Assembly: GCA_900544765.1 (NCBI GenBank)
Contig: UQWI01000001.1
Span: 62,001-126,000 of the forward strand
Length of the DNA stretch: 64,000 nucleotides
Source: an uncultured Eubacteriales bacterium
GTDB lineage: Bacteria > Bacillota > Clostridia > Oscillospirales > Oscillospiraceae
Direction of reading: 5' to 3'
Shown here: piece by piece, positions 57,198-62,275 of the stretch
Position numbering within the stretch: position 1 is the first letter of the stretch
How the letters are laid out: every line of letters starts with the position of its first letter
Translations under genes and position numbers: made by a program
Notes under the pieces: generated by a model
What the model was told of the DNA's origin: nothing
The model's database searches: none
The model's input: the letters and a program-made list of their open reading frames with translations, nothing else

Positions 57198-57539
57198 ATG
57201 CATGAGATAGGCGTCGTGCGCTCCATGATGCGCACGGTGGAGGATTTTGCCCGGGACAACGGCATAGACGAGATAGTCAGCATAGTGCTGGAGATAGGCG
57301 ACCTGTCTATGATAATCCCCAAGTATGTGGAAGACATTTACTCCGTAGTGTCCAAGGACACTCGCTTTGAGGGTACGGAGCTGGTCATCGAGACAGTTGA
57401 GGGCCAGGGTGTCTGCCGCGACTGCAAGCGCGCCTTCCCCATCGTGAAAAACGAAGGCTACTGCCCCCGCTGCGGCAGGCGCAACGCAGACATAATCAGC
57501 GGCCGGGACTTCATCATCAAGGAGATAGTCGTGCCGTAA
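57198..57539 (+). CDS. hypA: HypA-like nickel/zinc metallochaperone
   Basis: A 113-residue protein with the N-terminal nickel-binding MHE motif (M1-H2-E3) and the structural zinc site C73-x2-C76 ... C89-x2-C92. HypA delivers nickel to NiFe hydrogenases (with HypB) or supports other nickel enzymes. No hydrogenase, hypB or urease gene is nearby; the divergent neighbour is a large Fe-S oxidoreductase. The gene is therefore isolated and its client enzyme is unknown. A GC-rich hairpin follows the stop (57540-57563). Confidence 0.88.
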   Translation: MHEIGVVRSMMRTVEDFARDNGIDEIVSIVLEIGDLSMIIPKYVEDIYSVVSKDTRFEGTELVIETVEGQGVCRDCKRAFPIVKNEGYCPRCGRRNADIISGRDFIIKEIVVP

Positions 57540-57609: not shown

Positions 57610-57638
57610 TTGACTTTCGCCATGCAAAGCGGTATGGT
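57610..57638 (+). promoter_or_regulatory. Sigma-A promoter of the aromatic-leader operon
   Basis: TTGACT (57610-57615) and TATGGT (57633-57638) have a 17-base spacer; an overlapping TATAAG lies at 57638-57643. The transcript would begin around 57645-57650, about 40 bases before the leader peptide start. Confidence 0.75.
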
Positions 57639-57686
57639 ATAAGCACAGATTCAAAAACGGCCCCGTGCCGGAAAGGAGACAGTCAC

Positions 57687-57848
57687 ATGAAGCAGCTCAT
57701 CGTCAACACCATGAACCGTGTGAATTCCGTCTCCATCTGCGCCCAGGCTCGCAATGCTTTTGCGGGCTTCTTTAGCTATGTCTATTTTTATTTTTACTTT
57801 TATTCCCAGACTAAGCTAAGAAGCCTGACAAGACCAGCGGCCTGCTGA
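57687..57848 (+). CDS. Phe/Tyr-rich leader peptide of the ABC importer operon
   Basis: A 53-codon frame with a strong, well-spaced Shine-Dalgarno (GGAAAGGAG, 8 bases ahead of ATG). Residues 28-39 read FFSYVYFYFYFY, ten aromatic residues in twelve. The frame uses TTT and TAT for most of these (five of six Phe, four of five Tyr in residues 25-39), although the transporter gene downstream uses TTC and TAC almost everywhere. It is followed by a terminator and by an aromatic-amino-acid-type ABC importer operon. By analogy with PheL it is inferred to be a regulatory leader peptide sensing charged tRNA-Phe/tRNA-Tyr. No similar protein is recognised. Confidence 0.85.
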   Translation: MKQLIVNTMNRVNSVSICAQARNAFAGFFSYVYFYFYFYSQTKLRSLTRPAAC

Positions 57849-57873
57849 ACGCATAACTTTAGCAGCAACGGCC
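57839..57873 (+). promoter_or_regulatory. Candidate antiterminator overlapping the leader stop codon
   Basis: GGCCTGCTG (57839-57847) can pair with CAGCA (57863-57867) and GGCC (57870-57873), leaving two bulged bases. The leader stop TGA is at 57846-57848, inside the 5' arm. The 3' arm overlaps the 5' arm of the terminator (57867-57879), so the two folds exclude each other. A ribosome at the stop codon would cover the 5' arm; one stalled on the Phe/Tyr run would not. Confidence 0.65.
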
Positions 57874-57902
57874 CTCGCCTTGAACGGCGGGGGCCGTTTT
57901 TT
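57867..57902 (+). terminator. Intrinsic terminator (attenuator) of the ABC importer leader
   Basis: A 13-bp stem (57867-57879 with 57886-57898, one G-T pair) and a 6-base loop, followed by TTTTTT. It stands between the leader peptide and the transporter genes, so unchecked it would shut the operon off. Confidence 0.9.
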
Positions 57903-58037
57903 GTTTGTGGTTGTATCTAACGAGATGACCAACACCGTCTGACTCTACTGATGCGGGCATCTGCTGCGGCATTGGTCACCCGTCAGAAACAACCACAGGC
58001 GAGCTCTTACGAAAAGAAATAGGAAAAGGAGACGAAA
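57903..58037 (+). promoter_or_regulatory. Structured 5' region between the attenuator and the first transporter gene
   Basis: Three nested stems can form in register: 57906-57914 with 57989-57997 (9 bp), 57926-57932 with 57972-57978 (7 bp), and 57950-57954 with 57957-57961 (5 bp). The stems end before the GGAG of the 58038 gene. It could be a second regulatory or stability element; no known riboswitch was recognised. Confidence 0.5.
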
Positions 58038-59075
58038 ATGATGAAGATGAAGAAACTGCTCTGTATCGCCCTGGCGGCAGTGATGGTACTCGCCCTCGCA
58101 GCCTGCGGCAGCACTACCCAGCCCAGCGAGAACGGCGACCCCACCTCGAACCCCAGCAGTGAGCCCACTGCCAACCCCAGTTCCGGCGCCGAAGCTGCCC
58201 AGTATGTCGTCGGCATCTGCCAGCAGATGACCCACGACGCGCTCGACCAGGCCACGCTCGGCTTCAAGGACGCGCTCAATGAAATTCTCGGCGAAGGCGT
58301 CGTGGAGTTCCGCGAGCAGAACGCCGGCGGCGAGCAGACCAACTGCACGACCATTATGAACGGCTTCGTCTCCGAAGGCGTGGATCTCATCCTCGCCAAC
58401 GCCACCTGGCCGCTCCAGGCGGCCGCCAGCGCTACGGCCGACATCCCCATTCTCGGCACCAGCGTCACCGACTACGCCACTGCGCTGAACCTCGACAACT
58501 GGACCGGCACCGTCGGCAACAACATCTCCGGCACCAGCGACCTCGCCCCGCTCGACCAGCAGGCGGACATGATTCAGGAGCTCTTCCCCGACGCCGAGAC
58601 TATAGGCCTGCTCTACTGCTCCGGCGAGCCCAACAGCGTCTACCAGGTAGAGACCATCAGCTCCTACCTCGAGGAGATGGGCTACACCTGCACCCCCTAC
58701 GCCTTCACCGACGTGAACGACCTCTCCAGCGTCACCCAGACCGCCTGTGACAACTCCGACGTCATCTACATCCCCACCGACAACACCGCCGCCTCCAACA
58801 CCGAGACGATAGCCAACGTCGTCCTGGCCGCGGGCGTGCCCGTAGTCACCGGTGAGAGCGGACTTTGCTCCGGCTGCGGCGTGGCCACCCTGTCCATCAG
58901 CTACTACGACCTCGGCTACACCACCGGCGAGATGGCCGCGCAGATACTCCAGGGCGAGGCCGACATCACCACCATGGCCGTCCAGAGTGCGCCGAACGTC
59001 ACCAAGATGTACAACGCCGCCAACTGCGAGACCCTGGGCATCACCATCCCCGAAGGCTACGAAGCCATCGCCTGA
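58038..59075 (+). CDS. ABC importer substrate-binding lipoprotein, TrpX-like (COG2984), copy 1
   Basis: A 345-residue lipoprotein. The signal peptide ends at LALAAC with C23; a low-complexity Ser/Asn/Pro linker (about 24-52) and a two-lobe periplasmic-binding-type domain follow. Conserved blocks include FREQNAGGEQTNCTTI, LANATWPLQAA, and LLYCSGEPNSVYQVE. The COG2984 family includes the predicted tryptophan/tyrosine-type importer protein TrpX. It lies after the aromatic leader and before the permease and ATPase. AAGGAG precedes ATG 58038. An aromatic amino acid or derivative as ligand is inferred from the leader, not from the protein itself. Confidence 0.88.
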   Translation: MMKMKKLLCIALAAVMVLALAACGSTTQPSENGDPTSNPSSEPTANPSSGAEAAQYVVGICQQMTHDALDQATLGFKDALNEILGEGVVEFREQNAGGEQTNCTTIMNGFVSEGVDLILANATWPLQAAASATADIPILGTSVTDYATALNLDNWTGTVGNNISGTSDLAPLDQQADMIQELFPDAETIGLLYCSGEPNSVYQVETISSYLEEMGYTCTPYAFTDVNDLSSVTQTACDNSDVIYIPTDNTAASNTETIANVVLAAGVPVVTGESGLCSGCGVATLSISYYDLGYTTGEMAAQILQGEADITTMAVQSAPNVTKMYNAANCETLGITIPEGYEAIA

Positions 59076-59140: not shown

Positions 59141-60103
59141 ATGGACATCTTGCAATCGCTTGTAAACTCCCTGCCCGGCGTGGCCGGTCAGGGCCTCATC
59201 TGGGGCCTCATGGCCATGGGCGTGTATATCACATACCGCATACTGGACGTCGCCGACCTCACAGTTGACGGCACGCTCGGCACCGGCGGCGCGGTGTGCG
59301 TGCTGCTGATGGTGAACGGCGTGAACGCCTGGCTGGCGCTGCTGATAGCTACAATCGCCGGTATGCTCGCCGGGCTGGTAACAGGGCTGTTTCACACGAA
59401 ATGCGGGATTCCGGCCATACTCTCCGGCATACTCACCCAGCTGGCGCTCTACTCCATAAATCTGCGCATTATGGGCTGGGGTACCAGCGCCGGGACGCAG
59501 TCCACGCTGGCCATCAGCGTCGACAAGTACGACCTCATAGTCTCGTCGCGCTACGTCCGTGAGCTGAACCTCTCGAACCCCCTGCCCATCCTGCTGGTGA
59601 TAACCGCCGCAGTCATCGCGCTGCTCTGGTGGTTCTTCAAGACGGAGAGCGGCAGCGCGCTGCGCGCCACGGGCGCCAACCGCCAGATGGCCCGCGCCCA
59701 GGGCATCAACACATCCCGCAACACCGTAATCGGCCTGATGATATCCAACGGCATGGTCGGTCTTGCGGGCGGTCTGCTGGCCCAGTACCAGGGCAGCAGC
59801 AGCGTGGACATGGGCCGCGGCGCAATTGTAATCGGCCTGGCCGCCGTCATCATCGGCGAAGTGCTCCTTCGCGGCAACGGCAAGGTGCTGCGCGGCCTCA
59901 TCGGCTGCACGGTCGGCGCCATAGTCTACTACTTCGTCATCCAGATAGTGCTCAGGCTCGGCCTAGGCACAAACGACCTGAAACTCTTCACCGCACTCAT
60001 AGTCGCGCTCTTCCTCGCCATCCCCTATTGGAAGGGCAAAGCCGCCGCAGCGCGCAAGCGCACCGTCACTCTCAAGGAGGAAAAGAACAATGCTCGAGCT
60101 TAA
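59141..60103 (+). CDS. ABC importer permease, TrpY-like (COG4120)
   Basis: A 320-residue inner-membrane translocator with about eight or nine hydrophobic segments. The conserved GxTVDGTLGTGGAV-like stretch (DLTVDGTLGTGGAV, about 40-53) and the AQGINTSRNTVIGLMISNGMVGLAGGL block (about 186-212) are characteristic of the COG4120/BPD_transp_2 type. It forms the channel for the TrpX-like binding protein. An AAGGAG-type Shine-Dalgarno precedes the ATG. The ATPase gene overlaps its end by 14 bases. Confidence 0.9.
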   Translation: MDILQSLVNSLPGVAGQGLIWGLMAMGVYITYRILDVADLTVDGTLGTGGAVCVLLMVNGVNAWLALLIATIAGMLAGLVTGLFHTKCGIPAILSGILTQLALYSINLRIMGWGTSAGTQSTLAISVDKYDLIVSSRYVRELNLSNPLPILLVITAAVIALLWWFFKTESGSALRATGANRQMARAQGINTSRNTVIGLMISNGMVGLAGGLLAQYQGSSSVDMGRGAIVIGLAAVIIGEVLLRGNGKVLRGLIGCTVGAIVYYFVIQIVLRLGLGTNDLKLFTALIVALFLAIPYWKGKAAAARKRTVTLKEEKNNARA

Positions 60104-60887
60104 CAACGTCTCCAAGACCTTCAACCCCGGCACCATAAATGCCAAGACTGCGCTCAGCGGCCTGAACCTCACTCTCAACGACGGCGACTTCGTGACTGTG
60201 ATAGGCGGCAACGGCGCAGGCAAGAGCACAATGCTCAACGCCATAGCGGGCGCGTTCGACGTCGACGGCGGCAGCATCGTCATAGACGGCACCGACATCA
60301 CCCGTCAGAGCGAGCACAAGCGCGCCGCCATGATAGGCCGCGTATTCCAGGACCCCATGATGGGTACCGCCCCGACGATGACCATAGAAGAGAACCTGGC
60401 CCTCGCCGCCCGGCGCGGACGCCGCCGCACCCTGGCCTGGGGCATACGCAAAAGCGAGCGCGAGCGCTACCGTGAGCAGCTCTCCCGTCTCGGCCTCGGC
60501 CTTGAGAACCGCATGACCGCCCGCGCCGGCCTGCTATCCGGCGGCCAGCGCCAGGCCCTGACCCTGCTCATGGCCTCGCTGGTGCGGCCCAGGCTGCTGC
60601 TCCTCGACGAGCACACCGCCGCCCTCGACCCCGGCACCGCCGCGCGCGTGCTGGAGCTCAGCGACCAGATAGTCCGCGAGGGCCGCCTCACCACGCTGAT
60701 GGTCACGCACAACATGCGCGACGCCATAGAGCACGGCAACCGACTCATAATGATGAGCGAGGGCCGCATAGTCCTCGACATATCCGGCGAGGAGAAACGC
60801 CGCCTCACCGTCGACAGCCTGCTCGCCAAGTTCTCCCGCGCCGCCGGCGAAGACATGCTGACGGACAGAGTGCTCATAGGCGCATAA
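60090..60887 (+). CDS. ABC importer ATPase, TrpZ-like (COG1101)
   Basis: A 265-residue ABC ATPase with Walker A GGNGAGKST (about 38-46), signature LLSGGQRQALTL, Walker B LLLLDEHTAALD, and the H-loop MVTHNMRDA. It powers the importer together with the COG4120 permease. It starts within the permease gene behind AAGGAGG. A second binding-protein gene follows after 410 bases of hairpin-rich sequence. Confidence 0.94.
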   Translation: MLELNNVSKTFNPGTINAKTALSGLNLTLNDGDFVTVIGGNGAGKSTMLNAIAGAFDVDGGSIVIDGTDITRQSEHKRAAMIGRVFQDPMMGTAPTMTIEENLALAARRGRRRTLAWGIRKSERERYREQLSRLGLGLENRMTARAGLLSGGQRQALTLLMASLVRPRLLLLDEHTAALDPGTAARVLELSDQIVREGRLTTLMVTHNMRDAIEHGNRLIMMSEGRIVLDISGEEKRRLTVDSLLAKFSRAAGEDMLTDRVLIGA

Positions 60888-61297: not shown

Positions 61298-62275
61298 ATG
61301 CACAGGAAACTGCTCTCCGCCGCACTCGCGGCCACGATGACGCTCACGCTCGCCGCCTGCGGCTCAGCCCAGGACGACGCCCAGAGCGCCGAAAACCCCG
61401 ACGCCTATATCGTGGGCATCTGCGAACAGATGGAACACGTCTCGCTCAGTGAAGCCACCCGTGGCTTTAAGGACGCGCTGACAGAGGCGCTCGGCGCAGA
61501 CAACGTGACCTTCCGTGAGCAGAATGCCGGCGGAGAGCAGACCAACTGCACAACTATAATAAACGGCTTTGTCAGCGAAGGCGTCGACCTCATACTCGCC
61601 AACGCCACCTGGCCGCTCCAGGCCGCGCAGAGCGCCACAGCCGACATCCCCGTGCTCGGCACCTCCGTCACCGACTACGGCACCGCCCTCGGCATAGAGG
61701 GCTTCTCCGGCACCGTCGGCGGCAATATCTCCGGCACCAGCGACCTCGTCGACCTTGAGGCCCAGGCAAAGATAGTCCAGGAGCTCTTTCCCGACGCCGG
61801 GAATGTCGGCCTGCTCTACTGCTCCGGCGAGCCCAACAGCGTCTACCAGATAGAGACCGTGCGTGAGAGCCTAGAAGCCATGGGCTACACCTGCGAGGTC
61901 TACGCCTTCACCGACGTGAACGACCTCGCCAGCGTCACCCAGGCCGCCTGCGACACCTCCGACGTCATCTACATCCCCACCGACAACACCGTCGCGTCCA
62001 ACACCGAGAGCGTCGCCAACGTGGCCCTGGCCGCAGGCGTCCCCATCGTGGGCGGAGACCCCGGCATCTGCTCCGGCTGCGGCGTGGCCACCATAGCCAC
62101 GGATTACTATGAGCTCGGCCGCCTGACCGGCGAAATGGCCGCAAAGATACTCACCGGCGAGGCGGATATCTCCACCATGCCCGTGCAGTACGGCGCGATG
62201 GAAAAGCTCTACAACCCCGCCAACTGCGAAACCCTCGGTATAACCATCCCCGAAGGCTACACAGCCGTAGAGTGA
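61298..62275 (+). CDS. ABC importer substrate-binding lipoprotein, TrpX-like, copy 2
   Basis: A 325-residue paralogue of the 58038 gene. The signal peptide ends LTLAAC with C21. The same blocks FREQNAGGEQTNCTTI, LANATWPLQAA, YCSGEPNSVYQIE and NCETLGITIPEGY are present, so most of the domain is conserved. The Ser/Asn/Pro linker of copy 1 is much shorter. It has AGAGGT before the ATG and an intrinsic terminator after it. With one permease and one ATPase for two receptors, the importer may take two related ligands, or the second copy may be expressed differently. Confidence 0.88.
   Translation: MHRKLLSAALAATMTLTLAACGSAQDDAQSAENPDAYIVGICEQMEHVSLSEATRGFKDALTEALGADNVTFREQNAGGEQTNCTTIINGFVSEGVDLILANATWPLQAAQSATADIPVLGTSVTDYGTALGIEGFSGTVGGNISGTSDLVDLEAQAKIVQELFPDAGNVGLLYCSGEPNSVYQIETVRESLEAMGYTCEVYAFTDVNDLASVTQAACDTSDVIYIPTDNTVASNTESVANVALAAGVPIVGGDPGICSGCGVATIATDYYELGRLTGEMAAKILTGEADISTMPVQYGAMEKLYNPANCETLGITIPEGYTAVE

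Follow-up and report, generated by a model that had tools for sequence, protein, structure and literature searches.

A predicted phenylalanine/tyrosine leader-peptide attenuator family ahead of probable tyrosine/phenylalanine importers in two genera of Clostridia

The window—the whole 64,000-nt stretch of DNA analysed here, from a gut bacterium of the Clostridia—carries a short leader, predicted to be translated, ahead of the genes of an ABC importer. The following elements and genes make up the locus:

57610-57638, + strand: sigma-A type promoter, TTGACT-17-TATGGT (promoter scan of the window)
57672-57678, + strand: Shine-Dalgarno sequence of the leader, AAAGGAG (sequence reading)
57687-57848, + strand: leader peptide ORF of 53 codons, MKQLIVNTMNRVNSVSICAQARNAFAGFFSYVYFYFYFYSQTKLRSLTRPAAC, from ATG 57687 to the stop TGA at 57846-57848
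57768-57803, + strand: control codons FFSYVYFYFYFY, residues 28-39 of the leader peptide, 10 of 12 codons aromatic
58038-59075, + strand: substrate-binding protein 1 (SBP1), with a predicted Tyr-type pocket, Glu/Tyr (profile, structure match, alignment)
59141-60103, + strand: importer permease (ORF list, profile match)
60090-60887, + strand: importer ATP-binding protein (ORF list, profile match)
61298-62275, + strand: second substrate-binding protein (SBP2), with an Asp/Tyr pocket (profile match, alignment)

A leader-peptide attenuator had been proposed at this place from the letters alone (hereafter the sequence-only reading), with a sigma-A promoter, a well-placed Shine-Dalgarno sequence and a 53-codon frame carrying an aromatic run at residues 28-39. 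These elements stand as proposed: the scan gives one promoter-like match at the leader against a mean of 0.3 in shuffles, AAAGGAG precedes the ATG, and the frame and run occupy the positions claimed for them. Boxes resembling the promoter are visible 5' of the leaders of many relatives (by eye, without a count), and purine-rich sites like the Shine-Dalgarno sequence are present in relatives' leaders. The 5' neighbour of the leader is a hypA-like gene (57198-57539; 84.3 bits, slightly below the cut-off of 88.1). No leader of its own was seen upstream of SBP2, and in the gap between the ATP-binding protein gene and SBP2 the + strand scan listed neither a promoter-like nor a terminator-like site. 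The closest relatives of SBP1 are found in L001, an uncultured Clostridia genome (89% identity), and in L002, Candidatus Scatomorpha intestinavium (81%).

The promoter spacer (57614-57629) holds a palindrome-like CTTT..AAAG, possibly a repressor site; similar boxes occur in several leader loci and also in leaderless loci. A small hairpin, CGGC..GCCG at 57658-57670, lies immediately 5' of the Shine-Dalgarno sequence, and its arms differ in several relatives yet are often complementary. Between the terminator of the leader and SBP1 sits an imperfect palindrome of about 95 nt (57903-57997; arms 57906-57922/57981-57997 and 57926-57937/57967-57978), which is missing at the same place in L001 and L002 and resembles a small inserted repeat element.

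A search with the binding protein gave 78 related loci, in which the upstream DNA was read and the frames were scanned. Leaders are present in 13 of the 78 and number 15, the surplus coming from L015 and L025, in both of which two leader-binding protein units stand in tandem; upstream reading of the other 65 loci revealed no leader (L075 comes without upstream DNA). Together with the window leader and two more from genome searches, L089 and L090, these form the working set of 18 leaders aligned as A3. The gene that follows encodes a binding protein of the importer family in all 18. On both strands of the window and the 78 related loci, 11 short frames reach 9 or more aromatic residues in 12, and every one of them is a leader: the aromatic-rich leader frame is not a product of chance.

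At the level of genomes, the leader profile matches 12 of the 13 members of the nearest genus, 11 of the 12 having supplied the profile; the sole addition, G349 (L089), is a weak hit at E 7.4e-4 whose leader was verified by reading. Outside the genus, profiles of the first alignments matched 13 of 400 genomes of the family, partly by chance, and 11 of 394 genomes of the order and 6 of 391 of the class, mostly as chance hits. We also examined 53 loci with PF04392 genes, 23 of them in the genus and the others the 30 best of 122 positive genomes of the order, by reading the DNA 5' of these genes. Four divergent leaders (L161, L162, L163 and L169) lie among the 30 order loci and were found only by this reading. 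Once they are added to the profile, it picks up 15 of 394 genomes of the order at E≤0.05. Five of these fall below 1e-8, and all five are represented in the profile. The divergent leaders occur in 4 of 4 genomes of one second genus, the same genomes that supplied the profile; the genome tallies are not independent, most positive genomes of both genera having fed the search profiles.

The amino acids encoded by the run are well kept. At the seven YFYFYFY sites of A3, 96 of 101 codons specify Phe or Tyr (25 gapped cells set aside), and 10 of the 15 distinct variant codons at run sites keep Phe/Tyr, against 22% expected from random single changes; the run is only weak in L040. A protein collection yielded 106 clusters of leader peptides at E≤1 (largest 0.059), composed of 12.1% F and 9.4% Y with W at 3 of 5629 residues, and no Pfam domain was found in them; one matching peptide, P0038, bears the label Oscillibacter sp. 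MSJ-2. The length of the YF repeat differs among near-identical leaders (clusters P0001, P0027 and P0042), as if the unit expands and contracts.

The importer had been taken for a TrpXYZ-type transporter. Membership of the TrpX family holds good, but scores and pocket residues speak against tryptophan as the substrate and predict tyrosine or phenylalanine instead. Against the TrpX model NF041285, with its cut-off of 390 bits, SBP1 scores 227.7 and SBP2 205.7, and the position of the Trp-selecting pocket residue (Gln-284 of SP1069, carried over by alignment and residue spacing) holds Tyr in both. The best solved relative is 6hni (E 4.6e-42), the tyrosine-binding CD0873 of C. difficile, whose description ascribes the selection of tyrosine to Glu-263 and the exclusion of tryptophan to Tyr-279 (PMC6816091). 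The equivalent residues, placed by alignment and a 16-residue spacing, are Glu/Tyr in SBP1, which gives it a CD0873-type pocket as far as the ligand can be predicted, and Asp/Tyr in SBP2; the Glu residue is also common in binding proteins of loci that have no leader. Because the binding protein falls below the TrpX cut-off and carries the Glu/Tyr pair linked to tyrosine binding in CD0873, a Tyr/Phe importer appears likelier than a Trp importer, and the leader is a pointer to Tyr/Phe transport by importers that might otherwise be labelled TrpX. Two loci contain leaders of unlike composition side by side:

L015, 4774-6364: tandem leader-binding protein units with differing Phe:Tyr mixes
L025, 4708-6279: tandem leader-binding protein units with differing Phe:Tyr mixes

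In these two related genomes, the only ones concerned, the binding protein is of the Asp type after the leader with 8 Phe and 1 Tyr, and of the Glu type after the one with 6 Phe and 7-8 Tyr. Prephenate dehydratase (PF00800) was found in 0 of the 13 genus genomes, with 14 of 14 controls positive (genome completeness is not given), and the genus is predicted to be auxotrophic for phenylalanine.

These observations bear on what the leader senses. It might respond to any slowing of translation, for instance by ribosome-targeting drugs, the aromatic run being merely a slow stretch; the bmrB leader before BmrCD in B. subtilis, described as a ribosome-mediated attenuator ahead of an ABC transporter in a Firmicute (PMC4191407), would be a precedent. 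A run of Phe/Tyr with Trp near zero throughout the 106 clusters, a target resembling an aromatic amino-acid importer and the prephenate dehydratase result in the genus all argue against such a general sensor, which we consider very unlikely.

Comparison and folding of the leaders give the following elements:

57746-57768, + strand: P1 hairpin, GGCUCGC (57746-57752) with GCGGGCU (57762-57768) (pairing on A3)
57765-57783 with 57808-57825, + strand: protector stem 1:2, with the YFYFYFY codons in its loop (covariation on A3)
57823-57888, + strand: antiterminator 2:3, in three parts (outer helix, middle GGCC/GGCC, inner stop-codon hairpin)
57823-57834 with 57877-57888, + strand: outer helix of the antiterminator (covariation, folding)
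57839-57842 with 57870-57873, + strand: middle GGCC/GGCC pairing of the antiterminator (folding)
57842-57849 with 57858-57865, + strand: inner stop-codon hairpin (folding)
57868-57902, + strand: intrinsic terminator 3:4 (57868-57879 with 57886-57897) and U-tract (terminator scan, fold)

Neither the protector stem nor P1 had been mentioned in the sequence-only reading. The protector shows 10 of 16 pairs changed on both sides on A3, with 72.8% of cells pairing against 33-55% for slid versions, and its covariation score is reached by 0 of 500 shuffles, a contrast inflated, like the other shuffle contrasts given here, by the relatedness of the leader sequences. Slid by three columns, the stem still has 9 pairs with two-sided changes, though fewer cells pair. 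Pairing energies sum to -343.5 for the true partners and to -258.6 (s.d. 15.4) for permuted ones; none of 20,000 permutations is as good, nor is any of 20,000 when 13 less related leaders are used. The cognate partner is no better than the mean of the non-cognate ones in L015a, L025a and L089, and barely better in L040. The residues between the run and SLTR, which look unconserved as peptide, are encoded by the covarying protector arm. An earlier protector candidate, CAGGCU/AGCCUG across the run, showed two-sided changes not above shuffles (349 and 220 of 500) and a permutation count of 298 in 20,000, and was replaced by the stem listed above.

On the 3' side, the terminator claimed at 57867-57902 is found as a stem at 57868-57897 with a U-tract to 57902. 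The antiterminator that had been claimed at 57839-57873, with the leader stop codon in its 5' arm, is a possible pairing, but the inner hairpin at the stop codon forms in the same fold as the terminator; the two are therefore compatible and do not exclude each other, and the antiterminator supported by paired changes is longer. Exclusion of the terminator comes from the middle GGCC pairing and the outer helix. The outer helix is the part of the antiterminator that covaries: 7 of its 12 pairs have changed on both sides on A3, 76.1% of cells are paired against 22-40% in slid versions, the covariation score is reached by 0 of 500 shuffles, and permutation of partners does as well once in 20,000, and again once in 20,000 with 13 less related leaders. 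New loop sequences in L041 and L040 are matched by new sequences of segment 2, and L010 reads segment 2 in another frame, so that the RNA AGCCUGACAGGAC is kept and the peptide changed. The terminator itself, with 3 of 11 pairs changed on both sides on A3, does not exceed a version slid by one column.

In RNA that begins just before segment 2 and stops short of the terminator's outer 3' arm, 18 of 18 leaders have the outer antiterminator helix in their minimum free energy fold; once that arm is added, the terminator forms in 18 of 18. The starting and cut points were our own choice. The whole window leader, unmasked, folds with the protector, the stop hairpin and the terminator; since the terminator is the stable form at full length, the outcome has to be decided kinetically, during elongation of the RNA. 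With a ribosome placed on the last aromatic codon, 4 of the 18 leaders (L015a, L033, L036 and L089) fold without antiterminator pairs, and the pairing in L025a is of another kind; elsewhere in the set, 0-17% of shuffles pair at least as well as observed. Single leaders, that of the window included, are weak evidence when taken alone. The outer helix of the window has only 3+4 pairs. Shuffling segment 2 gives equally good pairing in 17% of trials (36% for L033, 50% for L090), and of 15 non-cognate segment 3 pieces, 12 are better partners for the window's segment 2 than its own.

In the window, the last codon of the run starts 22 nt before segment 2, and 26 nt separate the start of segment 2 from the end of the stop codon, a distance shared by 12 of the 18 leaders. 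Given the usual ribosome footprint, segment 2 would stay accessible while a ribosome is within the run, and its 3' part would be covered by one on the stop codon.

P1 is paired in 123 of 123 cells, and 1 of its 7 pairs has changed on both sides, in three sequences: Arg22Leu and Ala26Glu occur together in L031, L033 and L045 and keep the pair. Shuffles match the single two-sided pair in 219 of 500 cases and the three cells in 1. Such changes are relevant to the idea that the leader encodes an arrest peptide, which would sense free Phe or Tyr in the ribosome exit tunnel in the manner of TnaC. Some residues of the peptide (AR..FAG) are indeed strongly conserved, but they are encoded by P1, where paired changes preserve the RNA stem. 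The C-terminal part of the peptide is altered in L010 while its RNA is kept, and many control codons and an intrinsic terminator are not known as features of the TnaC arrangement; we judge an arrest peptide extremely unlikely.

UUCUUU, an instance of TTNTTT, adjoins P1 of the window directly on the 3' side. The motif abuts P1 without a gap in 12 of 18 leaders; it begins 5 nt further on in L089, L162, L163 and L169, is lacking near P1 in L015b, L025b, L040, L041 and L090, and occurs only 23 nt further on in L161. In the vmlR leader of B. subtilis, a pause hairpin with TTNTTT is described as a NusG pause signal in a paper that also cites runaway transcription in this organism (PMC9226507), and in the tlrB leader NusG pausing is reported to synchronise polymerase and ribosome (PMC6851288). 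P1 with TTNTTT has the look of such NusG pause signals and may synchronise the ribosome with the polymerase. A pausing role for P1 is something we infer, because TTNTTT also follows from two Phe codons and P1 shares positions 57765-57768 with the protector. If P1 is a pause site, the question of how classical attenuation can work where ribosome and polymerase are not necessarily coupled becomes directly testable. Tentatively, we go one step further and combine two proposals: P1 with TTNTTT could be a built-in synchroniser that halts the polymerase until the ribosome arrives, and the Phe:Tyr mix of each leader could track the pocket of its binding protein, making the leader readable as a specificity label. 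This joint reading may well be wrong; if the synchroniser is real, classical attenuation could work where the polymerase can outrun the ribosome.

Leaders outside the alignment offer a comparison that is independent of its construction. From A3 we built a covariance model that covers P1 together with the outer helix of the antiterminator; having 19 pairs in 159 positions, it is largely a sequence model. Run over 95 sources, namely the window and 94 loci not used in building, it matches all four divergent leaders outside its training set (L161 at 8e-14, L169 at 3e-12, L163 at 3e-11 and L162 at 4e-11), and beyond these the next match in the 95 sources has an E of only 0.18. P1 is present in all four. 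A fold that ties up the terminator loop is found in three of them, of which L162 and L169 are nearly identical; in L163 the same antiterminator is not shown. The case for an attenuator rests on the paired changes and on this out-of-sample model.

An untranslated frame, with the RNA acting as a riboswitch or a T-box-like element, has to be weighed against the same data. In the relatives L068 and L069 this place is taken by a T-box, and all 13 of the 13 genomes of the genus have T-box matches at E≤0.001, with 9 of them exceeding the cut-off. At Rfam gathering thresholds, however, the window has only a tRNA elsewhere: the scan of the locus returned no family at threshold, and the T-box covariance model gave no match there. 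Start, Shine-Dalgarno sequence, frame and the Phe/Tyr meaning of the run are all kept, and we find an untranslated element scarcely credible. The T-boxes of L068 (4583-4830) and L069 (4598-4832), upstream of the same binding-protein family, look like an exchange of sensors at the same gene. Near other binding-protein loci we noted a TwoAYGGAY RNA (L067, 3380-3545, - strand) and an FMN riboswitch (L011, 1077-1206, + strand), and cobalamin riboswitches are found in L068 (4294-4487) and L069 (4319-4517), both on the - strand.

The leader is very probably a ribosome-mediated transcription attenuator, which would govern a Tyr/Phe ABC importer according to how far tRNA-Phe and tRNA-Tyr are charged. 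Sequence comparison shows conservation of the leader frame with its run, of the stems and of the target gene. The check suggested along with the sequence-only reading, conservation of the Phe/Tyr run and of two competing stems among relatives, came out in its favour over the 18 leaders compared, and with the corrections given above, run conservation and covarying stems support a leader-peptide attenuator. The parts of a classical attenuator can each be pointed out: a short ORF with start and Shine-Dalgarno sequence ahead of the operon, its frame conserved among relatives; a run of codons for amino acids related to the operon (Phe/Tyr with almost no Trp, matching the predicted pocket of the importer); a protector stem, whose position suggests disruption by a ribosome on the control codons; an antiterminator that excludes the terminator when the leaders are taken as a set, with a spacing that suggests occlusion by the ribosome; and an intrinsic terminator ahead of the first gene.

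How the leader would respond to phenylalanine and tyrosine, in which direction and with what kinetics, we infer as follows. In untranslated RNA the protector 1:2 would form, segment 3 would stay free and the terminator 3:4 would fold. With plentiful Phe and Tyr, the ribosome would cross the run and come to sit on the stop codon at 57846-57848, where it would cover the inner hairpin as well as segment 2 in its 3' part, and again the terminator would form. When Phe or Tyr is short, the ribosome would stall in the run and mask segment 1, leaving segment 2 (57823 onward) free to capture the terminator loop and inner arms (57877-57888) before the outer 3' arm is made. The terminator would thereby be prevented, and the polymerase would read into the importer genes. 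P1, which lies in the codons just before the run and is followed by UUCUUU, may pause the polymerase so that the ribosome catches up.

The pheL and trpL attenuators of enteric bacteria combine a leader ORF containing control codons with a 1:2 protector, a 2:3 antiterminator and a 3:4 terminator. In its predicted design the window leader is like them in all four respects, and unlike them it occurs in Clostridia, targets an importer, mixes Phe and Tyr codons and has an extra hairpin, P1, 5' of the codons. The sequence-only reading had considered it an unusual, possibly undescribed class of attenuator in Firmicutes. That is too broad, since classical leader-peptide attenuators with His and Leu codons have already been reported there (PMC2965389, PMC9413887, PMC5794164); because of these reports, only the Phe/Tyr importer attenuator family appears new, the classical design being known in Firmicutes. 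In the open-licence literature we found no description of a Phe/Tyr leader attenuator for this importer.

Among Firmicutes, leader-peptide attenuators for histidine are described for hisS/hisZ in bacilli (PMC2965389) and, including Eubacteriales, for his operons (PMC9413887). They share with the present family the use of classical attenuation where relatives use T-boxes, and differ, as described in these sources, in having histidine codons and in controlling the his operon, transporter or tRNA-synthetase genes (PMC2965389, PMC9413887). The Leu-rich attenuator peptide of the S. aureus ilv-leu operon likewise pairs a leader peptide with a terminator in a Firmicute and is reported to have genetic support; it differs in the amino acid, leucine, in controlling a biosynthesis operon and in belonging to Bacilli (PMC5794164). 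The uORFC-13-1 motif before aroF in Acholeplasma is also a predicted Phe-sensing uORF ahead of an intrinsic terminator, but it precedes a biosynthesis gene, has at least one Phe codon in its description and comes from another lineage (PMC8632094). The tlrB (yxjB) and vmlR leaders of B. subtilis have a pause hairpin, accompanied by TTNTTT in vmlR, to which P1 with its TTNTTT looks alike; those leaders are described as antibiotic-induced, whereas pausing at P1 is putative (PMC6851288, PMC9226507). The Trp T-box of trpXYZ in Streptococcus suis serves the same transporter family, and there too tRNA charging controls termination; it works, by its description, through direct tRNA binding with a Trp specifier and no leader peptide (PMC9382623). 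The Phe/Tyr leader attenuators form a supported family in two Clostridia genera whose genomes also hold T-boxes, so that one lineage uses two different sensors of tRNA charging.
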